Source: Acidaminococcus timonensis (GTDB taxonomy: Bacteria > Bacillota > Negativicutes > Acidaminococcales > Acidaminococcaceae). From it: a DNA stretch of 64,000 nucleotides. Under the pieces are notes generated by a model. The model did no database searches and was not told where the DNA came from. It saw nothing but the letters and a program-made list of their open reading frames with translations. Made by a program: the position numbers and the translations under genes. This document shows, in pieces, positions 19,459 to 32,112 of the stretch (its first letter is position 1; every line of letters starts with the position of its first letter). The DNA lies in NCBI RefSeq assembly GCF_900106585.1, contig NZ_FNWH01000006.1, positions 1,116,001 to 1,180,000 on the forward strand, in the 5' to 3' direction.

Positions 19459-19684
19459 ACTCCACCTCCTGCGTAATAGCATCTCGCAAACGATACCGCG
19501 CCAATCGTAAACGATCAATCACGTTGGCAATTTCTTCCTCTGCATCAAAAAGCCGTTGCACAGAGTCATTTAATCTCAGGTTGTACCCGTGTCGGTATCT
19601 CAGGTTCCAATTCAGCCCGCGCGCGATTTTTTGAGCATCGTGCATAGCCGTTTTGGCGTGGCATAAAGCCTTTTGGTTAATCAT
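19433..19684 (-). CDS. Hypothetical phage protein (83 aa)
   Basis: A helical protein starting MINQKALCHAKTAMHDAQK, with alternating acidic and basic helices (SVQRLFDAEEEIANVIDRL) and ending VEYEYESNHK. It overlaps the coiled-coil gene upstream by 4 bp and the next by 26 bp. No family recognised; it lies among nucleotide-metabolism genes in the early operon. Confidence 0.62.
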   Translation of the reverse strand: MINQKALCHAKTAMHDAQKIARGLNWNLRYRHGYNLRLNDSVQRLFDAEEEIANVIDRLRLARYRLRDAITQEVEYEYESNHK

Positions 19685-19887
19685 CTCTGTCCTTTCCTTT
19701 CCTTGTGAAGCGCTCGGGTCAACGCCAGGATAATCTTGTTGTCCTGGTCAATCGTTGCCCCCAGCCTGTGGTTTTCCGCTTCCAGTTCAGTAATGCGATC
19801 TTGCAAGGCTTCGTTTTCTCGTTCCAGGTCGTCAATGCGTTCCTCGTCCGCGTCTAACATTTCGCGCATTTCGTCAAATTCATCCAC
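19681..19887 (-). CDS. Small acidic coiled-coil protein (68 aa)
   Basis: Almost the whole protein is a heptad-patterned coiled coil (DDLERENEALQDRITELEAE), with an acidic start (MDEFDEMREMLDADEER) and a basic end (ALHKERKGQR). It is the first gene after the TCTACC repeat region and overlaps the next gene by 4 bp. Function unknown; it could be a scaffold or a regulator of the replication proteins. Confidence 0.6.
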   Translation of the reverse strand: MDEFDEMREMLDADEERIDDLERENEALQDRITELEAENHRLGATIDQDNKIILALTRALHKERKGQR

Positions 19888-19920
19888 TTTTTACACCTAC
19901 TTTCTTGTTTCTTCCGAAAG

Positions 19921-20193
19921 TCTACCATTTTGCACCCCCTTACGGTAGACTCCGGAACCCGCATCCTGCCTAGCTTTATGGCATTGTCTACCATGTCTAC
20001 CCTTTTTTCGTAGAGGGGGTAGCATAATATATAAATATATCCGGACCACCAATTCCTTCCGGAATTTTAATTTCCATATATATCTATATATGTATGGTAG
20101 ATATGGTAGAATGGTAGATATAGTAGTAAATATATAGGCGTGGTGCGGGTTTTCGGATTTTGAAAAGTCTACCCTACGTCTACCATCTCTACC
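19921..20193. repeat. TCTACC/GGTAGA iteron array around an AT-rich core
   Basis: Ten copies of the hexamer TCTACC occur in 273 bp: forward at 19921, 19987, 19996, 20168, 20179 and 20188, and reverse (GGTAGA) at 19944, 20096, 20105 and 20113. Many are paired with a 9-bp period (TCTACCATGTCTACCC at 19987; TCTACCATCTCTACCC at 20179; three in a row at 20096-20118). The middle (20024-20092) is AT rich. No gene fits. It lies between the primase gene end and the next gene, suggesting a replication origin or a multi-site operator. Confidence 0.75.
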
Positions 20194-20213
20194 CTTTCAG
20201 AATTTTCTTGCAA

Positions 20214-22802
20214 CTATTTACCAGTTACCAAAACCACATAAGACGCCCGAACTCCACAAATTGATTTAGTCCATAGCACCCTCCCATCCGGACGCGTCAA
20301 GATTTTCCCTGTTGCAGCCCATTTTTTCTTGACAGCGGTAAAATTGAATCCTTCATCGGCCATAAAACGCATTAGCACGGATCTGTTAATGCTCACTTCA
20401 TTTCCGCTTCGTCCGCCCCAGATACGGCCGTCGCAGTCACGGTGTTCTGCGTCGTCCTCATGGGCAACGTAAAATTTATCGGTGTTTTCCGCGATCCAGT
20501 CAACCACAGCACTATATGCCCGTTCGGAAACGTCTACCTGCTTTTTGCTCAGCAGGAACGGGGCAACGTCGGCAGGCATCAGCCCGGGAATTACGGATTT
20601 TAAAAAATAAATCCTAAAAATATCGTCTGCTACCATAAGCAGCGCCATCGTCATTGCCTGTTTGTCAGTCGTCCCCAGCTTCATCAGCTCCTGGAACGTA
20701 CCATCGTAGGCGGCGCGGACGTCAACTTGCAGGGCCTTCTTGATGTATTCCGGCCCCAATGTGCCGTAGTGCTCATTGATCGCCCTGACCACCTGATTGC
20801 CGTGTTCAACTACCGGCCCGTCGCACTCAATCTCAATCACGCGGTTTTTTACGCCGCCACCAGAACTTTCGCCGGTCACGGGTTCCTCCCCCGTAAAAAT
20901 AAATCCAGTGTTCCAGGTTTCGGGCTTTTCTACCCGCCGGTCGGCGGTCATGCGCGCCCGGCCTGTTTTTTCCGTAATGCGGTACAGCAATCTGTCATAG
21001 CCGTTAAAACGGTCTTTGATGGTCTGTAGTTCGTCGCCGAAAAACGGGATGTTGCGCAAGGTTGACGCAATGCCCACCAATGCGTTATCCGTCATGTTCA
21101 TGGTCCTAACCATTGCGCCAAATTGCGGGTTGCCCCACACGCTGGCCGCAACCATGATACCTACGGTCTTGCCGCTGCCAGTGCCGCCCCAGAGGTGAAA
21201 CACGTAGGGCAGCCCCTTAATGATTTCCAGCAGGGGCGCAGCAAGGCTAGCGGCAACGGTTAACCGCAGGTAGATGTTATCCATCAGCGGCCGCACAATC
21301 TTTAACCATTCGTCCAGGGTGCCCTTTTGCTGGATTGCATTAACCAGGGCGTCTCCTGTTGGCCCGGCGTCGATCGTCAACCCGTCAACATACGGGGCAA
21401 ACCAGCCGTCCTCCGTCCATCCGAAATGGTCGATATACGTTTCCCGCGGCATATCGGCCGGGTTTTCCGTCACGCACTCGCTGATATATTTAACCAGGTA
21501 CTGCGCGTTGTCCGTCGTGACTTCCAGTCCATTGTTGGCCAGGTTTACAATGCGGTTTTTGCTTGCCACATCGGCCCGGTCGGCCGTGATGTTGGACCAC
21601 TTGCCCGCCTTGTAAAAATCAAGGCGGATCCGCTCCTCGCCCGTTTCGGCGTTCACCAAAATTCCCGTAGGCATCGTGGGAATCCGGCTTGCCCATTGAT
21701 AGGTAAAATCGCCGCCGTTGCCCTTCGTGGTCATGCGCCGGATCCCTTCGTCATCGGCGATCCAGTCGCCGCAACGCAATGCCAGCGGCTGCCCGGTGAA
21801 ATGGGTGGTATTTTCGTTGCCGTTCCGGTTCTGTGCCAGTTTAATTCTGGCCGCTTGCAGGTTTTTACAAAACTCCCGTTTTATGGCCAGGTCACTGGCC
21901 CGGAACGTGGCCAGGCTTTCCGCCCGCTGCTGCTGCACCGGGTCGTCAATCTGAATCAGCTTTAAAAGGAAATCCTCTGAAACAAGGTCCGCCCTATCCA
22001 ATCCCTGGAAGTATTCCTCGGAAAATTCCACCGTGGGGAATTTGTACCCGCGGATTTTTTCCGGGTCCCCGCCTGCTTCCAGGTAATCGGCAACGTCACC
22101 TTTCACCGGGCACTCTGGCCAGATTTCCGGCAGCGGCAAAATCTTTGCCCCGCGTTCCGCCCATGCCTTGCCGTACACAGCGCCTGGATCGTCGTTGTCG
22201 GGAATAATAACTTTCCGGGCAAACTTCCCGACGGCTTTTCGGTCCGTCTCAGACAGGTTCGGGCTTTCCGCCCCCGTGTTGGTGCTGGTGGCCAGGAATC
22301 CCGCGTTGGTCATAGCGTCGGCGCATTTCTCGCCCTCAACGATGTACAGTGTCTCGGTTTTCTTTGCCGCCGTCAGACGGTCCAGGTTATACAGGTTGTT
22401 GCATGGCTTCGGCTTTTTATAAATCACCGTTCCGTCCGGACCGGTATACAAAAAGCTGAATTTTTTGTGCCCGTCTGCAAATTTTTCTCGGATTTTGCAA
22501 TAAGCCTCTTTCCCGTCCGGGTCCCGGTAGGTGTAGACTATCCGTTCCACCCTCCGCCCGTGATTTTTCGGCCTTGACGGCGCAACCGGTGCAGGCGGTT
22601 CCCCGCCCACATCCAGAGCCTTTAACACCGCCGGGAGGGACGCGTGGCACTTATGACAAAATGCCAGCGTTTTCTCCCCGTCCCGGCTGATGTACAGGTG
22701 GTCCTCGTCGCCGCACACCGGGCACTGCGCAACCAGGGCGCTGCCGCGTTTATGTACGTTATTCAGTTTCCCAAGGATTTCCTCATAACTCAGAACGGAC
22801 AT
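20214..22802 (-). CDS. Primase-helicase (zinc finger, TOPRIM, DUF927 ATPase)
   Basis: An 862-residue replication protein. Residues 27-52 hold a CHC2-like zinc finger (CPVCGDEDH ... CHKC). A TOPRIM domain follows around residues 150-240 (LYIVEGEKCADAM with catalytic Glu; VIIPDNDDPGA with the Asp pair). The C-terminal half is a DUF927-type helicase: VFHLWGGTGSGKTVGIM is Walker A near residue 540 and PFFGDELQ resembles Walker B. It can prime and unwind phage DNA. It overlaps the SSB-like gene upstream by 13 bp, and its 3' end borders the TCTACC array. Confidence 0.93.
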   Translation of the reverse strand: MSVLSYEEILGKLNNVHKRGSALVAQCPVCGDEDHLYISRDGEKTLAFCHKCHASLPAVLKALDVGGEPPAPVAPSRPKNHGRRVERIVYTYRDPDGKEAYCKIREKFADGHKKFSFLYTGPDGTVIYKKPKPCNNLYNLDRLTAAKKTETLYIVEGEKCADAMTNAGFLATSTNTGAESPNLSETDRKAVGKFARKVIIPDNDDPGAVYGKAWAERGAKILPLPEIWPECPVKGDVADYLEAGGDPEKIRGYKFPTVEFSEEYFQGLDRADLVSEDFLLKLIQIDDPVQQQRAESLATFRASDLAIKREFCKNLQAARIKLAQNRNGNENTTHFTGQPLALRCGDWIADDEGIRRMTTKGNGGDFTYQWASRIPTMPTGILVNAETGEERIRLDFYKAGKWSNITADRADVASKNRIVNLANNGLEVTTDNAQYLVKYISECVTENPADMPRETYIDHFGWTEDGWFAPYVDGLTIDAGPTGDALVNAIQQKGTLDEWLKIVRPLMDNIYLRLTVAASLAAPLLEIIKGLPYVFHLWGGTGSGKTVGIMVAASVWGNPQFGAMVRTMNMTDNALVGIASTLRNIPFFGDELQTIKDRFNGYDRLLYRITEKTGRARMTADRRVEKPETWNTGFIFTGEEPVTGESSGGGVKNRVIEIECDGPVVEHGNQVVRAINEHYGTLGPEYIKKALQVDVRAAYDGTFQELMKLGTTDKQAMTMALLMVADDIFRIYFLKSVIPGLMPADVAPFLLSKKQVDVSERAYSAVVDWIAENTDKFYVAHEDDAEHRDCDGRIWGGRSGNEVSINRSVLMRFMADEGFNFTAVKKKWAATGKILTRPDGRVLWTKSICGVRASYVVLVTGK

Positions 22803-24541: not shown

Positions 24542-24680
24542 CCTTTTTCACCTCTTTCTGTTCCTCAGCCAGGGCTTTTCTCAGGTTTTCCACGTAGGCC
24601 GTCGGGACCTCTTTTAGGTCCTCAAACCGCGTTTCCCGTGTGTGTAACAGCAGCTCAACGGCTGCACTCTTCAGGCTCAT
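24534..24680 (-). CDS. Hypothetical small phage protein (48 aa)
   Basis: Start ATG 24680 (MSLKSAAVELLLHTRETRFE) stands behind a perfect AAGGAGGT site, and the gene overlaps both neighbours (26 bp upstream, 8 bp downstream). The product is helical, ending in a charged tail (EEQKEVKKDA). No family recognised. The strong ribosome site and tight overlaps make it very likely real. Confidence 0.72.
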   Translation of the reverse strand: MSLKSAAVELLLHTRETRFEDLKEVPTAYVENLRKALAEEQKEVKKDA

Positions 24681-25131
24681 CGACTCCAACCTCCTTTAAC
24701 AGCTCTTTATAATCCAGGCCCAAAACCTTACAGGCTAGGTAAGTGGTAGAGTCAGACGGCGCCCCGCCGACACAAATCATGTATGACCATGAGCCAGCAC
24801 TTAACCCGATTCTTTCAGACAGGGTAAAATTTGCGACACATTTAGCAATCCGGGCACGTTCCAGGATTTTCGCGGCTTTCTTGCGCTGTTCCCGGGACAG
24901 GAACGGCAGCTTCATGGGTGCCGTTTTTACCAGGCTGCGCATGGGTACACCAGGCGCGATATAGTCACGGATTTTTAAATATTGCCACGGCTCCAGGATT
25001 GTAGCCTGGGAAAGTTTCTCCCATCGCAGCAGCCAGGAGGGGTCGTGGTCTGCTTGTTTCGCAACCTCTGTAGCTGTAAATCGCCGCGTTATCCTGATGT
25101 AACGTTCCCAGTCCCGAAAATTATTGGCCAT
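24655..25131 (-). CDS. Putative DNA-binding protein with two helix-turn-helix units
   Basis: From ATG 25131 (MANNFRDWERYIRITRRF), with GGTGG 8 bases before, 158 residues result; an ATG at 25149 is possible but too close to GGGAGG. Two XRE-like segments are visible: FTATEVAKQADHDPSWLLRW ... LKIRDYIAPG, and a later FTLSERIGLSAGSWSYMI ... LACKVLGLDYKELL. The middle is basic (FLSREQRKKAAKILERARIA). It is probably a transcription or replication regulator of the early operon; the specific role is unknown. Confidence 0.6.
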   Translation of the reverse strand: MANNFRDWERYIRITRRFTATEVAKQADHDPSWLLRWEKLSQATILEPWQYLKIRDYIAPGVPMRSLVKTAPMKLPFLSREQRKKAAKILERARIAKCVANFTLSERIGLSAGSWSYMICVGGAPSDSTTYLACKVLGLDYKELLKEVGVDEPEECSR

Positions 25132-25402
25132 TTCGTTGTCCACCAGCATCACCTCCCTGTTCCAGCCATTCCAGGAAGTGTTCCCGGGTGGCCAGGTATT
25201 TCTTGCCAATCCGGAAAACTTTCAACCTCCCGGATTTCATGATTTCCCTTGCCCTGTATTCGCTGCAATCCAGGGCGTTCATCAACGCCTCTATATCCAG
25301 GACGGATGGCAACGCCGCGCCGAACACCGGCCCATGGAGTTGCGCTTCCAGATTCTTCACCCGCTGTTCCAGGATGGCAACGCGGGCATCAATGGTTTCC
25401 AT
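25121..25402 (-). CDS. Excisionase-like MerR/HTH_17 protein
   Basis: A 93-residue protein with an N-terminal coiled coil (RVAILEQRVKNLEAQL) and a C-terminal winged helix of the excisionase type (LDCSEYRAREIMKSGRLKV, then IGKKYLATREHFLEWLE). Such proteins bind DNA near attachment sites or early promoters. It lies in the lytic early operon, downstream of the Cro-like gene, where Xis-like regulators are common. Excision function is not proven; it could be a general activator. Confidence 0.65.
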   Translation of the reverse strand: METIDARVAILEQRVKNLEAQLHGPVFGAALPSVLDIEALMNALDCSEYRAREIMKSGRLKVFRIGKKYLATREHFLEWLEQGGDAGGQRNGQ

Positions 25403-29374: not shown

Positions 29375-29752
29375 TTTAAAAGCATTGAAGAAAATGGGAA
29401 AAGCGGTACTTAACTATCATCCTACTGTCCTACTACTAGTGAAGGAGGATGATAACCATGAAGAAAATCCAAGGTCAACTCGTCGACAACCTGCACAACA
29501 CAGCAAAGGTCATGGAAGCCTTTGCCAACGACTATGCAAAGGCCAAAACCAAAGAAGAACAGGAGGAAATCCTGCGATTCGAGGCTCTATATCGTAAGCG
29601 CTAAAAAATCCGGTGTATGGAATTACCACCTTCAGTTTGAGATAATACGGATGTTAAAAATATCGCACGAAAAAAACGAATTTCTCTACAGTGCGCAACG
29701 TGTCGTTTTTTTCGAGCCATTTGTGTCACTCATCTCTGGAGGTGGTTTTGTT

Positions 29753-30109
29753 TTGGGTGAAATTCAACGCATAAAACATCAGAAGGCTCTGGAATACTGG
29801 AGCCAGATTCTAAAGGAGCAACAGGAAAGCGGCCTTTGCATCAAGGCGTTCTGTCGGTCACGTCAGATGAGCCATCATGCCATGTATTACTGGATCAAGG
29901 AACTGAGAGAGGAAGCGCTGTTGGTCAATCCTCAGGCACCCGCCCGTACTACTCAATTTGCGCCCGTCTCTCTGGCTCAGGAGCAACAGCATTCCTGCGG
30001 GAAGATGGTCGTCCACGTGGGCTCTGCTTCTCTTGAAATCCCTGAGGGAACCGCTGCGCCAGATTTGCAGCGTACGCTGCAGGTCCTCAAAGAGGTATTC
30101 TTGTGTTAA
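29753..30109 (+). CDS. tnpA: IS66 TnpA-like accessory protein
   Basis: A 118-residue protein (GEIQRIKHQKALEYWSQIL), probably started at TTG 29753, 10 bases after GGAGG. The helix-turn-helix region QESGLCIKAFCRSRQMSHHA and YYWIKELREE fit IS66 OrfA/TnpA, which is needed for transposition with TnpB and TnpC. It overlaps TnpB by 7 bp. No ATG is available between the ribosome site and conserved sequence. Confidence 0.85.
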   Translation: MGEIQRIKHQKALEYWSQILKEQQESGLCIKAFCRSRQMSHHAMYYWIKELREEALLVNPQAPARTTQFAPVSLAQEQQHSCGKMVVHVGSASLEIPEGTAAPDLQRTLQVLKEVFLC

Positions 30110-30459
30110 TCCGCAACATCACTGCCGACCATATCTACCTGGCCTGTGGATATACGGATATGCGCAAATCCATCGACGGGCTGGCTGCTCTGGTGGCTGC
30201 CCGTTTCCATCTGGATCCCCATCAGCCCGCCCTCTTTCTGTTCTGTGGCAGAAGGAAAGACCGGATCAAGGCTCTCTTGTGGGATGAGACTGGATTCCTG
30301 CTGCTGTACAAGAGACTGGAAAATGGCCGGTATCAGTGGCCAAATACTCCAGAAGATTTGGTGGAACTCTCCCAACAGCAGCTCCGCTGGCTCATAGAGG
30401 GTCTCTCCATCCATCAGCCAAAAGCTGTGCAGACGGTCCATCCGTCCCTGACCATCTGA
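30103..30459 (+). CDS. tnpB: IS66 TnpB (Orf2 family)
   Basis: A 118-residue protein with the highly typical IS66 Orf2 sequence: LACGYTDMRKSIDGLAALVA, LFLFCGRRKDRIKALLWDE and the TGFLLLYKRLENGRYQWP block. It is required with TnpA and TnpC for IS66 transposition; its biochemical role is not known. It overlaps TnpA by 7 bp and precedes TnpC by 93 bp. Confidence 0.95.
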   Translation: MLIRNITADHIYLACGYTDMRKSIDGLAALVAARFHLDPHQPALFLFCGRRKDRIKALLWDETGFLLLYKRLENGRYQWPNTPEDLVELSQQQLRWLIEGLSIHQPKAVQTVHPSLTI

Positions 30460-30552
30460 AAAAAGTAGGAATAGTAAGTCTGTGGATTTCCTGGATTTCA
30501 GTCCTTTCCTCCGGTATAATGGAGACATCATGAAACGAAGGAGACCGGAACC

Positions 30553-32112
30553 GTGGCCGAAGCAGGGAGAACCGAAGAACAGATCAAGGAACTGGAACAG
30601 AAAGTGGAACGTCTGTCCGAGGAGAACCAGAGACTCAAACAACAGCTGCATGCTCTGCGGCACACTGTCTTTGGTTCCCGCACGGAAAAGGCGGAAAAGA
30701 TTTGTCCGGACCAGCTCAATCTCTTCAATGAGGCCGAAGTGGAAGCCAAACCATCGGCACCGGAACCTGAAATCGAAGTCCCGGCCCACAAACGGCGCAA
30801 GAAGCAGAAGCGGGATTGGGCCGAGCTGCTGGAAAAATTTCCCCATGAAGAAAAACTGTATACTCTCCCGGAAGATGAACGGATCTGCAAACGCTGCGGC
30901 AGTCCCCTGGTCTCCATGGGCAAAGAGAAAATCCGCACAGAAGTGCAGTTCATCCCTGCCCAGGTCAAGATCATCGACATCTACCGGGAATCTTTCCAGT
31001 GCCTGGAATGTCGGAAGCAGGAACATTTTGTGGTTGAGAAGCCTCAAGTGCCTCACAGCGTCCTGCAGAATTCCATGGCCACAGCATCTGCCGTAGCCCA
31101 TGTCATCGTCCAGAAATACCAGATGGCCGTGCCGCTCCACCGTCAGGAACAGGAATGGAAGAATATCGGCCTGCCGCTTTCCCGGGCAACCATGGCCAAC
31201 TGGATCATCCGGTCTTCCCAGGACTGGCTGGCTCCCCTGGTCAGTGTCATGAAGGCAGAGCTGCTGAAGCAGGCGGTGATCCATGCGGATGAAACTCCGG
31301 TCCAGGTGCTGAATGAGCAGAACCGGAAAAACACCACCAAGTCCTTCATGTGGGTGTATACCAATGGGGAATATGAACAACTGAAAAAGATACGGATCTA
31401 CCAGTACTGCCAGGGCAGGAGCGGTGAGTTCGCCAGGAAATTCCTGGAGGGGTATCAGGGAATCCTGCAGACTGATGGGTATGCAGGATATGAGAAGGTC
31501 TCCTGCAAAGTCCATGCCCTGTGCTGGGTGCATGCCCGGAGGAAGTTCGTCGAAGCCATCCCAGCCGACATGCCCAAGGAAGAGGTTGCCCAGACCACCT
31601 GCGGCCAGGCCATCCAGAAACTGGGGGAAATCTTTGCCGAAGACAAGAAACTGGCGGAACTGGATCCAGAAAAGCGGAAAGAAGAACGTCTGCGGCTTGA
31701 AAGAAGCAAGCTGGAGGCTTACTTTGCGTGGCTGGAAACGAAAATGGACGAACAACCGAGCCTGAAGTCGCCGCTGGGCAAGGCTATCCAATATATTCTC
31801 CTCCACAGGAAGCAGTTGAGCGCCTACCTGGAATATGGAGAAGCTGCCATGACGAACAATATCTGTGAACGGGCCATCCGGAACTTCACCATAGGCCGGA
31901 AAAACTGGTTATTCAGCGCTTCTCCCAAAGGAGCAGAAGCCAGTGCCACGATTTACAGCATCATCGAGACCTGTAAGGCCAATGGCCTGGAGCCATACAC
32001 TTATCTGACCTACCTGTTCGAGAAGCTGCCCAACATGGATTTCAAGATCCATCCGGAACTGCTCCAGCAGATGATGCCCTGGTCTGAAGAAGTACAGAAT
32101 ATATGCAAGTAA
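30553..32112 (+). CDS. tnpC: IS66 transposase TnpC (DDE)
   Basis: A 519-residue DDE transposase starting at GTG 30553 behind GAAGGAG. It has the N-terminal leucine-zipper coiled coil (LEQKVERLSEENQRLKQQL), a zinc-finger-like CKRCGSPLV ... CLECRKQ segment, and the catalytic domain with VIHADETPVQVL, LQTDGYAGYEKV and NICERAIRNFTIGRKNW supplying the acidic triad. Full length and intact, so the element may be mobile. A long antisense frame overlaps it but is a shadow. Confidence 0.96.
   Translation: MAEAGRTEEQIKELEQKVERLSEENQRLKQQLHALRHTVFGSRTEKAEKICPDQLNLFNEAEVEAKPSAPEPEIEVPAHKRRKKQKRDWAELLEKFPHEEKLYTLPEDERICKRCGSPLVSMGKEKIRTEVQFIPAQVKIIDIYRESFQCLECRKQEHFVVEKPQVPHSVLQNSMATASAVAHVIVQKYQMAVPLHRQEQEWKNIGLPLSRATMANWIIRSSQDWLAPLVSVMKAELLKQAVIHADETPVQVLNEQNRKNTTKSFMWVYTNGEYEQLKKIRIYQYCQGRSGEFARKFLEGYQGILQTDGYAGYEKVSCKVHALCWVHARRKFVEAIPADMPKEEVAQTTCGQAIQKLGEIFAEDKKLAELDPEKRKEERLRLERSKLEAYFAWLETKMDEQPSLKSPLGKAIQYILLHRKQLSAYLEYGEAAMTNNICERAIRNFTIGRKNWLFSASPKGAEASATIYSIIETCKANGLEPYTYLTYLFEKLPNMDFKIHPELLQQMMPWSEEVQNICK

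Follow-up and report, generated by a model that had tools for sequence, protein, structure and literature searches.

Introduction

Replication initiators (Reps) of SaPIs are described as recognizing, via their C-terminal domain, iterons located directly downstream of their own gene (PMC7581432), and pri-rep-ori segments of PICIs, in which two sets of iterons flank an AT-rich region, are reported to replicate autonomously (PMC6092414). According to the available text of the former study, the primases of SaPIbov1 and SaPI5 are of the AEP type, Cch is a DUF927 relative of the SaPIbov1 Rep, and Cch2, which belongs to another helicase family, binds with its C-terminal domain to direct repeats downstream of its own gene, namely three copies of AAGTG, and an origin for Cch itself is not indicated there (PMC7581432). 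TcpK, which acts at the oriT of plasmid pCW3, is described as reading tandem 9-nt boxes with its wing (PMC6137059), and for the Rep-iterons of geminiviruses it is reported that positions are conserved while sequences diversify, and that a matching iteron sequence is non-essential for replication (PMC12548392). Our own literature search, which had partial coverage and is weak as a negative result, found no description of this kind of origin in DUF927 phages or of a pairing between wing and iteron.

Here, we describe an array of hexamers beside a primase-helicase gene, termed rep in the following, in a stretch of 64 kb that was analyzed as a whole and is referred to as the window; it corresponds to G000:C6:1116001-1180000 in a genome of 2.3 Mb. 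A first-pass annotation had likened the array to an origin with initiator iterons or to a cooperative operator. The former proposal is strongly supported by the homology of Rep and by the conserved position and layout of the arrays: the region 19888-20213 is very probably the replication origin of a prophage, read by the C-terminal winged helix of the prophage's own Rep with a specificity that is largely set by the wing. This reading is built on the array itself, on its conserved layout, on the concerted change of its copies and on a surplus of amino-acid changes that near-identical Reps show in their wing, all of them observed at the level of sequence.

The Hexamer Array and the Adjoining Rep Gene

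The gap between rep and the gene of a small coiled-coil protein (19888-20213, 326 bp) contains exactly ten hexamers, six TCTACC and four GGTAGA, with distances of 23, 43, 9, 100, 9, 8, 55, 11, and 9 bp between consecutive copies (Table 1). Along the direction of rep, three copies pointing back are followed by three pointing forward, the 94-bp core, two back, one forward, and one back. First-order Markov shuffles of the gap had a mean of 0.2 copies and a maximum of 3, and in 2000 such shuffles 6-mers with at least three different letters reached 6 copies at most, which is also the count of the top 6-mer of this kind found per 300 bp elsewhere in the window. The composition of the core has to be seen against a G+C content of 53.8% in the window. 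These positions, shuffles and base composition confirm the ten copies, six forward and four reverse, and the AT-rich core of the first-pass annotation, which was also right in placing the coiled-coil gene on the other side of the array (it starts 33 bp from the first copy) and in letting rep adjoin it, with the distance from the last copy to the end of rep being 20 bp instead of the 21 bp given there. A 17-bp inverted repeat with AACCCGCA ends was absent from that annotation. Among mechanically derived frames of at least 60 aa, a single one (19736-19948, 70 aa) enters the gap. A check of GC skew, which had been proposed as well, was carried out and is uninformative at the array, as the surrounding genes all run one way and the cumulative skew falls nearly steadily without a turn at 20 kb.

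Table 1. Coordinates of the proposed origin and adjoining features in the window.
Feature	Position	Strand	Remarks
Coiled-coil gene, far side	19681..19887	-	68 aa; outside the origin on present evidence
Outermost iteron, far side	19921..19926	+	TCTACC, exact hexamer
Outer iteron, far side	19944..19949	-	GGTAGA, exact hexamer
Second constant-element arm	19956..19972	+	AACCCGCA
Inner iterons, far side	19987..20001	+	TCTACC at 19987, 19996
AT-rich core, proposed melting site	20002..20095	.	69% A+T; two degenerate hexamer copies (20010-20015, 20018-20023) within 20010-20023
Inner iterons, Rep side	20096..20118	-	GGTAGA at 20096, 20105, 20113
Constant-element arm between outer and inner iterons	20135..20151	-	AACCCGCA on the minus strand
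Third outer Rep-proximal iteron	20168..20173	+	TCTACC, exact hexamer
Outer Rep-proximal iterons, two of three	20179..20193	+	TCTACC at 20179, 20188; matches first triplet position of relatives (9/11 bp spacing)
Rep	20214..22802	-	Primase-like N-terminal part, DUF927 (MCM-like) helicase, C-terminal winged helix HTH_56
Wing patch, 13 codons	20262..20300	-	Rep residues 835-847; changes concentrate there when iterons change

Rep belongs to the Cch/SaPIbov1 Rep helicase family, which combines a DUF927 core with a C-terminal winged helix. PF06048 and PF18662 were found above cut-off, with HTH_56 ("Cch helix turn helix domain") spanning residues 757-858, and the N-terminal third matches primase families of PHROGs; this primase part, which has no Pfam match, we take to be of the TOPRIM type from its motifs. 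The sole significant sequence relatives of the single Rep among solved structures were 8tch (SaPIbov1 Rep, 1.6e-20 by phmmer) and 5dgk (SCCmec Cch), and a profile of 15 relatives reached 3e-66 and 2.1e-44 to them, respectively. Both were also the top fold matches of the full predicted Rep (pLDDT 74; E about 1e-20, TM to target 0.53-0.58) and again of the model of its C-terminal domain (pLDDT 86), a predicted winged helix. Named close relatives of Rep are found in Acidaminococcus massiliensis (93%) and A. fermentans (51%).

The genes around the array are those of an integrated phage and encode an integrase, a CI-like repressor, Mu Gam-like and Sak4-like proteins, a dUTPase, and a helicase. Since the same element encodes its own terminase large subunit, portal, head protease and major head protein in addition to the integrase and the CI-like repressor, its classification as a phage-inducible chromosomal island was rejected in favor of a prophage. 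Three frames beyond the integrase (29522-32112) resemble an IS66-type transposase set.

Arrays Downstream of Related Rep Genes

Related loci were examined over the 400 bp past the Rep stop, and an array was called significant when the repeat count of a 7-mer surpassed that in at least 198 out of 200 shuffles. A Rep match was present at 69 loci. Of these, 47 were distinct and had a closed frame, and the test was applied to the 46 whose downstream sequence was long enough; these include the window copy (L001) and near-duplicates (L022/L002, 99.8% identical; L122/L121, 97.6%). Significant arrays were found downstream of Rep at 39 of the 46 loci, compared to 13 passes among 567 control windows taken from these loci, where windows whose top 7-mer had fewer than 4 copies were scored negative without shuffling. 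At 40 of the 46, the downstream 7-mer count was higher than in every control window of the same locus. The shuffle test failed at seven of the 46 loci (L106, L107, L016, L135, L137, L138, and L017), although two of these, L107 and L137, still exceed their own control windows. From twenty further stretches, mostly of genomes with multiple Reps, 19 were testable, of which 13 passed and 6 failed.

Carriers of arrays include Anaerostipes phage AC844P2, Ruminococcus phage phiRg507T2_3, Thermoanaerobacterium phage THSA-485A, Faecalibacterium phage FP_Epona, and Geobacillus plasmid pSJEF4-2-2, while the arrays of Eubacterium callanderi plasmid p1_EUCAMar and Roseburia phage Jekyll are weak. In phiRg507T2_3, a small gene whose annotation reads "DNA binding regulatory protein" (4366-4542 of L103) is situated between the helicase gene and the array. 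Plasmid pSJEF4-2-2 (L108) comprises 13 kb with eight annotated features, of which five were inspected, encodes a Rep of this type and carries 16 TGTCACAA-type copies (at most one mismatch) in the 400 bp downstream of it; it is possible that this plasmid represents a minimal natural replicon of this Rep-array type.

A scan of viral contigs with the full-length profile A2 gave, among the best 80 of 472, mostly primase-only matches together with the nearer relatives L022 and L023. The 78 loci matching in the primase part only (L024-L101) were considered as negative control and rejected, because arrays are also present in 28 of the 60 that remained after exclusion of 18 lacking 400 bp or a closed frame; control windows inside the Rep loci were used instead. 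Downstream of these primase(-helicase) genes, which have no DUF927 match, words such as AGTTGGC and CAGTTGG occur. The rule of a downstream array may extend to other initiator families.

The arrays resemble each other in their layout. An outer triplet with spacings of ~9 and 11 bp was found in 21 of 43 arrays (3.9 expected by random placement), a pair-core-pair layout in 31 (3.0 expected), and both in register in 12 (0.0 expected), with the geometry classes having been defined after inspection of the arrays and one-mismatch sites being counted. The spacing, whose conservation in related phages had been suggested as a check in the first-pass annotation, is conserved. The core gap had a median of 97.5 bp in 40 relatives (sites with at most one mismatch). 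Staphylococcal PT1028, whose record says bacteriophage and which we take to be SaPI-like, carries AGTTCCC 3, 12, 23, 47, 90, 99, 196, 239, 263, 274, and 281 bp past the Rep stop, compared to 3, 12, 23, 78, 86, 95, 195, 204, 247, and 270 for the copies of the window after subtraction of 18. In this one record the outer triplet (3/12/23) is identical to that of the window and the other copies lie within ~10 bp; PT1028 passes the triplet test and fails the pair-core-pair test as coded.

On the Rep-proximal side, six is the most frequent number of sites; it was counted at 18 of 40 loci, compared to a random expectation of 17%, and 6+6 sites occur in 6 of 40. In the window itself, 7 and 4 sites are counted when one mismatch is allowed, and 6 and 4 by exact hexamers. 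The occurrence of 6+6 arrays is suggestive of one iteron per subunit of two Rep rings, and only suggestive, since one-mismatch sites enter the count and the figure for an individual locus may be wrong.

Between outer and inner iterons, a constant element (AACCCGCA) is present whatever the iteron word (L003, L004, L006, L008, L010, L102-L104, and L143-L146), with several relatives carrying CTCAACCATGCGG followed by G/C/T and TTT. The 9-mer AACCCGCAT occurs in 12 of 42 arrays, whereas any shuffled 9-mer reaches 6 at most; exact AACCCGCA is not listed for the more distant loci L120-L137. The element is possibly a priming site or the site of a second protein.

Iteron Sequences and the Wing of Rep

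In contrast to the layout, the iteron words differ between relatives. Locus L003 has TTCTACC, i.e., the hexamer of the window, and L004, L005, and L007, whose Reps are 93% identical to that of the window, have TTCCTACAT in the window's layout; the C-terminal domain of L004 (about residues 690-862) is found with identical sequence in A. massiliensis (L005). A second, prophage-type Rep in the genome of the window (L002, G000:C6:616839-619436; 51% identical) has its own array of TTCCTACCT, and the words of other relatives include TTTAAC, TTAGCTAAC, GTCTTACAT, GGTAACCG, AGGTGAAAC, and TTGTGACA. Across related loci, 42 arrays gave 32 distinct seed 7-mers or, after registers had been merged by eye, ~25 words (counted without correction for relatedness), some of which recur in distant loci (GTTCCC in PT1028, L107, and L130/L133/L136; TGTCAC in L018 and L108). 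An H-A-C on one strand is found in all 42 arrays with a defined seed, compared to 41.5% of the 7-mers in these gaps. According to the first-pass annotation, hexamers that are not conserved in related prophages would speak against its proposal. Taken literally, this is what was found, whereas position, number, orientation, and spacing are conserved. Judging hexamer conservation is therefore misleading in this case and would have wrongly dismissed the origin, as the repeat sequence is replaced in concert.

Six genomes with two or three Reps (G000, G035, G132, G303, G197, and G151) contain at least two Reps with arrays, and their words differ; G151 has a third Rep without array, one of two arrays in G163 is weak, G162 has two identical Rep copies on two contigs, and G165 and G184 were set aside. 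The differing words of co-resident Reps would fit selection against cross-initiation, which is a lead only, because chance alone would mostly give different words.

Three switch pairs, defined by helicase cores at least 95% identical and differing iterons, were compared: window-L004, L012-L013, and L144-L146, with the iteron change being small in the last. Residues 800-832, which include the recognition helix, are 100, 100, and 97% identical in these pairs, respectively, compared to 68, 72, and 80% for the wing (833-857). In the predicted model, the wing patch given in Table 1 comprises the loop that follows the recognition helix, together with most of the wing's first strand. Nonsynonymous/synonymous changes amounted to 5/1 in the patch versus 59/285 elsewhere in Rep for window-L004 (p 0.0009), to 7/2 versus 37/70 for L012-L013 (p 0.015), to 4/3 versus 17/97 for L144-L146 (p 0.017), and to 16/6 versus 113/452 for all three pooled (Fisher, p 3e-7). 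The control pair window-L003, which shares the hexamer, showed 2/3 versus 42/243 (p 0.17). As the 13 codons were chosen after the first two switch pairs had been viewed, L144-L146 provides the fairest, near-independent test.

Against this assignment, it might be argued that the array is an origin whose specificity comes from another part of Rep or from some partner, with the wing changes being due to drift or to recombination together with the array. The patch codons are situated only ~50-90 bp from the gap, and the nucleotide identity of the switch pairs drops from ~100 bp before the Rep stop and on through the array. In addition, a broad sliding-window partial rank correlation between iteron distance and Rep segments across 40 loci failed to point to the wing in particular, which was outscored by residues 415-434 over all pairs and by residues 729-748 among closer pairs. 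For 52 closer pairs, which are non-independent, iteron distance correlated with wing-minus-core identity (rho -0.62), but also, less strongly, with the corresponding measure for the segment before the helix (-0.51) and with core identity (-0.52). The wing also differs in some pairs whose words are identical or almost identical, namely L142-L015 (60% at 76% core identity), L010-L146 (46% at 68%), L143-L144 (64% at 85%), and L006-L008 (68% at 91%; both TTTAAC, with the next base differing). However, the excess in the switch pairs is nonsynonymous and concentrated in the patch, while the 15 codons from the patch to the array show 3 amino-acid changes in window-L004 and only 0 and 1 in the other two pairs, which makes simple hitch-hiking with the array unlikely. 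Moreover, same-iteron Reps of 83-86% core identity keep 96% of the wing (L011-L012, L011-L015, and L130-L136). Taken together, another source of specificity appears unlikely, and the best reading of the sequences is that iteron specificity is largely set by the wing and may be switched.

Structural comparison yielded TcpK as the next fold match of the Rep C-terminal domain after 8tch and 5dgk (Z 10.0, rmsd 2.9 over 89 residues). Together with the changes in the wing, this resemblance might point to a Rep domain that, comparable to TcpK, reads DNA with its beta-wing instead of the recognition helix. A profile built from the helicase-plus-domain alignment also matched TcpK (E 0.0028), but TcpK was not listed up to E 10 with a profile of the C-terminal domain alone.

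Alternative Functions of the Array

The array could also be a cooperative operator, at which a phage regulator (the double-HTH protein, the coiled-coil protein or the CI-like repressor) controls the early operon. Tandem hexamers at a period of 8-9 bp would suit a cooperative repressor, and HTH proteins are encoded nearby. However, the array is situated at the 3′ end of rep inside a co-directional block, and the sole promoter-like site in 19600-20500 (1.3 expected by chance) falls outside the gap. Furthermore, compared with the window, L004, which has other iterons, is 85% identical in the double-HTH and 89% in the coiled-coil protein, whereas L003, which has the same hexamer, is 79 and 77% identical. 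Both proteins are closer to L004 than to L003 and hence do not track the iterons. Arrays also stay beside Rep in phages and plasmids whose other neighboring genes differ, and an operator is accordingly regarded as quite improbable. From the three candidate readers of the first-pass annotation, i.e., the primase, the double-HTH protein and the coiled-coil protein, the primase is thus favored, with its C-terminal winged helix as the presumed reader, and the other two are disfavored because their divergence ignores the iterons. The double-HTH protein (184 aa, 24655-25209) had no Pfam or PHROGs match at 0.001, and a bZIP identity of the 68-aa protein, based on a Pfam match, was set aside as coiled-coil composition only.

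A structural or regulatory RNA, a terminator or a recombination site, for which the AT-richness and the inverted copies could be taken as an indication, is highly improbable, since the three Rfam matches obtained were all far below their thresholds (E 0.11 for the best one) and terminator-like sites were absent, and since copies changing together while the spacing stays is the pattern expected of protein sites.

Origin Model and Comparison With Known Systems

In the proposed origin, the hexamers are putative iterons that would be bound by the winged helix of Rep, whose gene is immediately upstream. Each of the two iteron sets flanking the AT-rich core would nucleate one Rep ring, and the two rings would melt the core so that replication can start. 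A short patch of the wing would largely set which iteron Rep reads, so that wing and iterons would change jointly. The steps of binding, ring loading, melting, and replication are deduced here by analogy from the work on SaPI Rep and Cch. In a more general form, for which we see about even chances, phage, satellite and plasmid replicons with a DUF927-HTH_56 Rep would share one fixed origin frame, in which the iteron is an exchangeable address: the H-A-C core would be read by conserved parts of Rep and the flanking bases by the 13-residue wing patch, and a change of patch and array would create a new compatibility group. If this were true, exchanged addresses would let several such prophages share one cell without firing each other's origins. 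The ~25 iteron words on one frame with matching Reps, including near-identical Reps with different iterons, form a natural data set for studying how a self-loading helicase recognizes its origin and which co-resident prophages or satellites can cross-initiate.

Among known systems, the origins of SaPIs and PICIs are the most similar ones. As in these, the array is located immediately 3′ of rep (with 20 bp between the Rep stop and the nearest copy), two iteron sets (six and four copies) surround an AT-rich stretch, and Rep is homologous to the SaPI initiator helicase, as seen from the matches to 8tch and 5dgk. In PT1028, the one record compared, the outer triplet is the same and the further spacing similar, although the pair-core-pair test fails there. 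In contrast to SaPIs and PICIs, the array of the window sits in a prophage that itself encodes a head protein, portal, protease, and terminase, its arrangement has the constant element in addition, and the helicase carries a fused primase part matching PHROGs primase families, whereas the primases of SaPIbov1 and SaPI5 are described as AEP-type. Reported to be restricted to phage-inducible islands, this origin design is common beside this Rep family in ordinary temperate phages and occurs in plasmids, which suggests that the islands may have taken their origin from phages, or the reverse.

Other systems share single aspects. SCCmec Cch2 is similar in having repeats downstream of its gene and a C-terminal domain described as binding them, and differs in its three AAGTG copies. 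TcpK has a winged helix fold similar to that of the Rep C-terminal domain and tandem 9-nt boxes as its DNA, but is described as a conjugation protein of 102 residues without helicase, which bridges two DNAs as a dimer. Iteron plasmids are a comparable system, in which the positions of repeats are kept while their sequences diversify. The same is described for the Rep-iterons of geminiviruses, which have, however, an unrelated initiator and rolling-circle replication. The best reading is that the array of the window marks a SaPI/PICI-type origin in an ordinary prophage, with the probably switchable pairing of wing and iteron as its new part.
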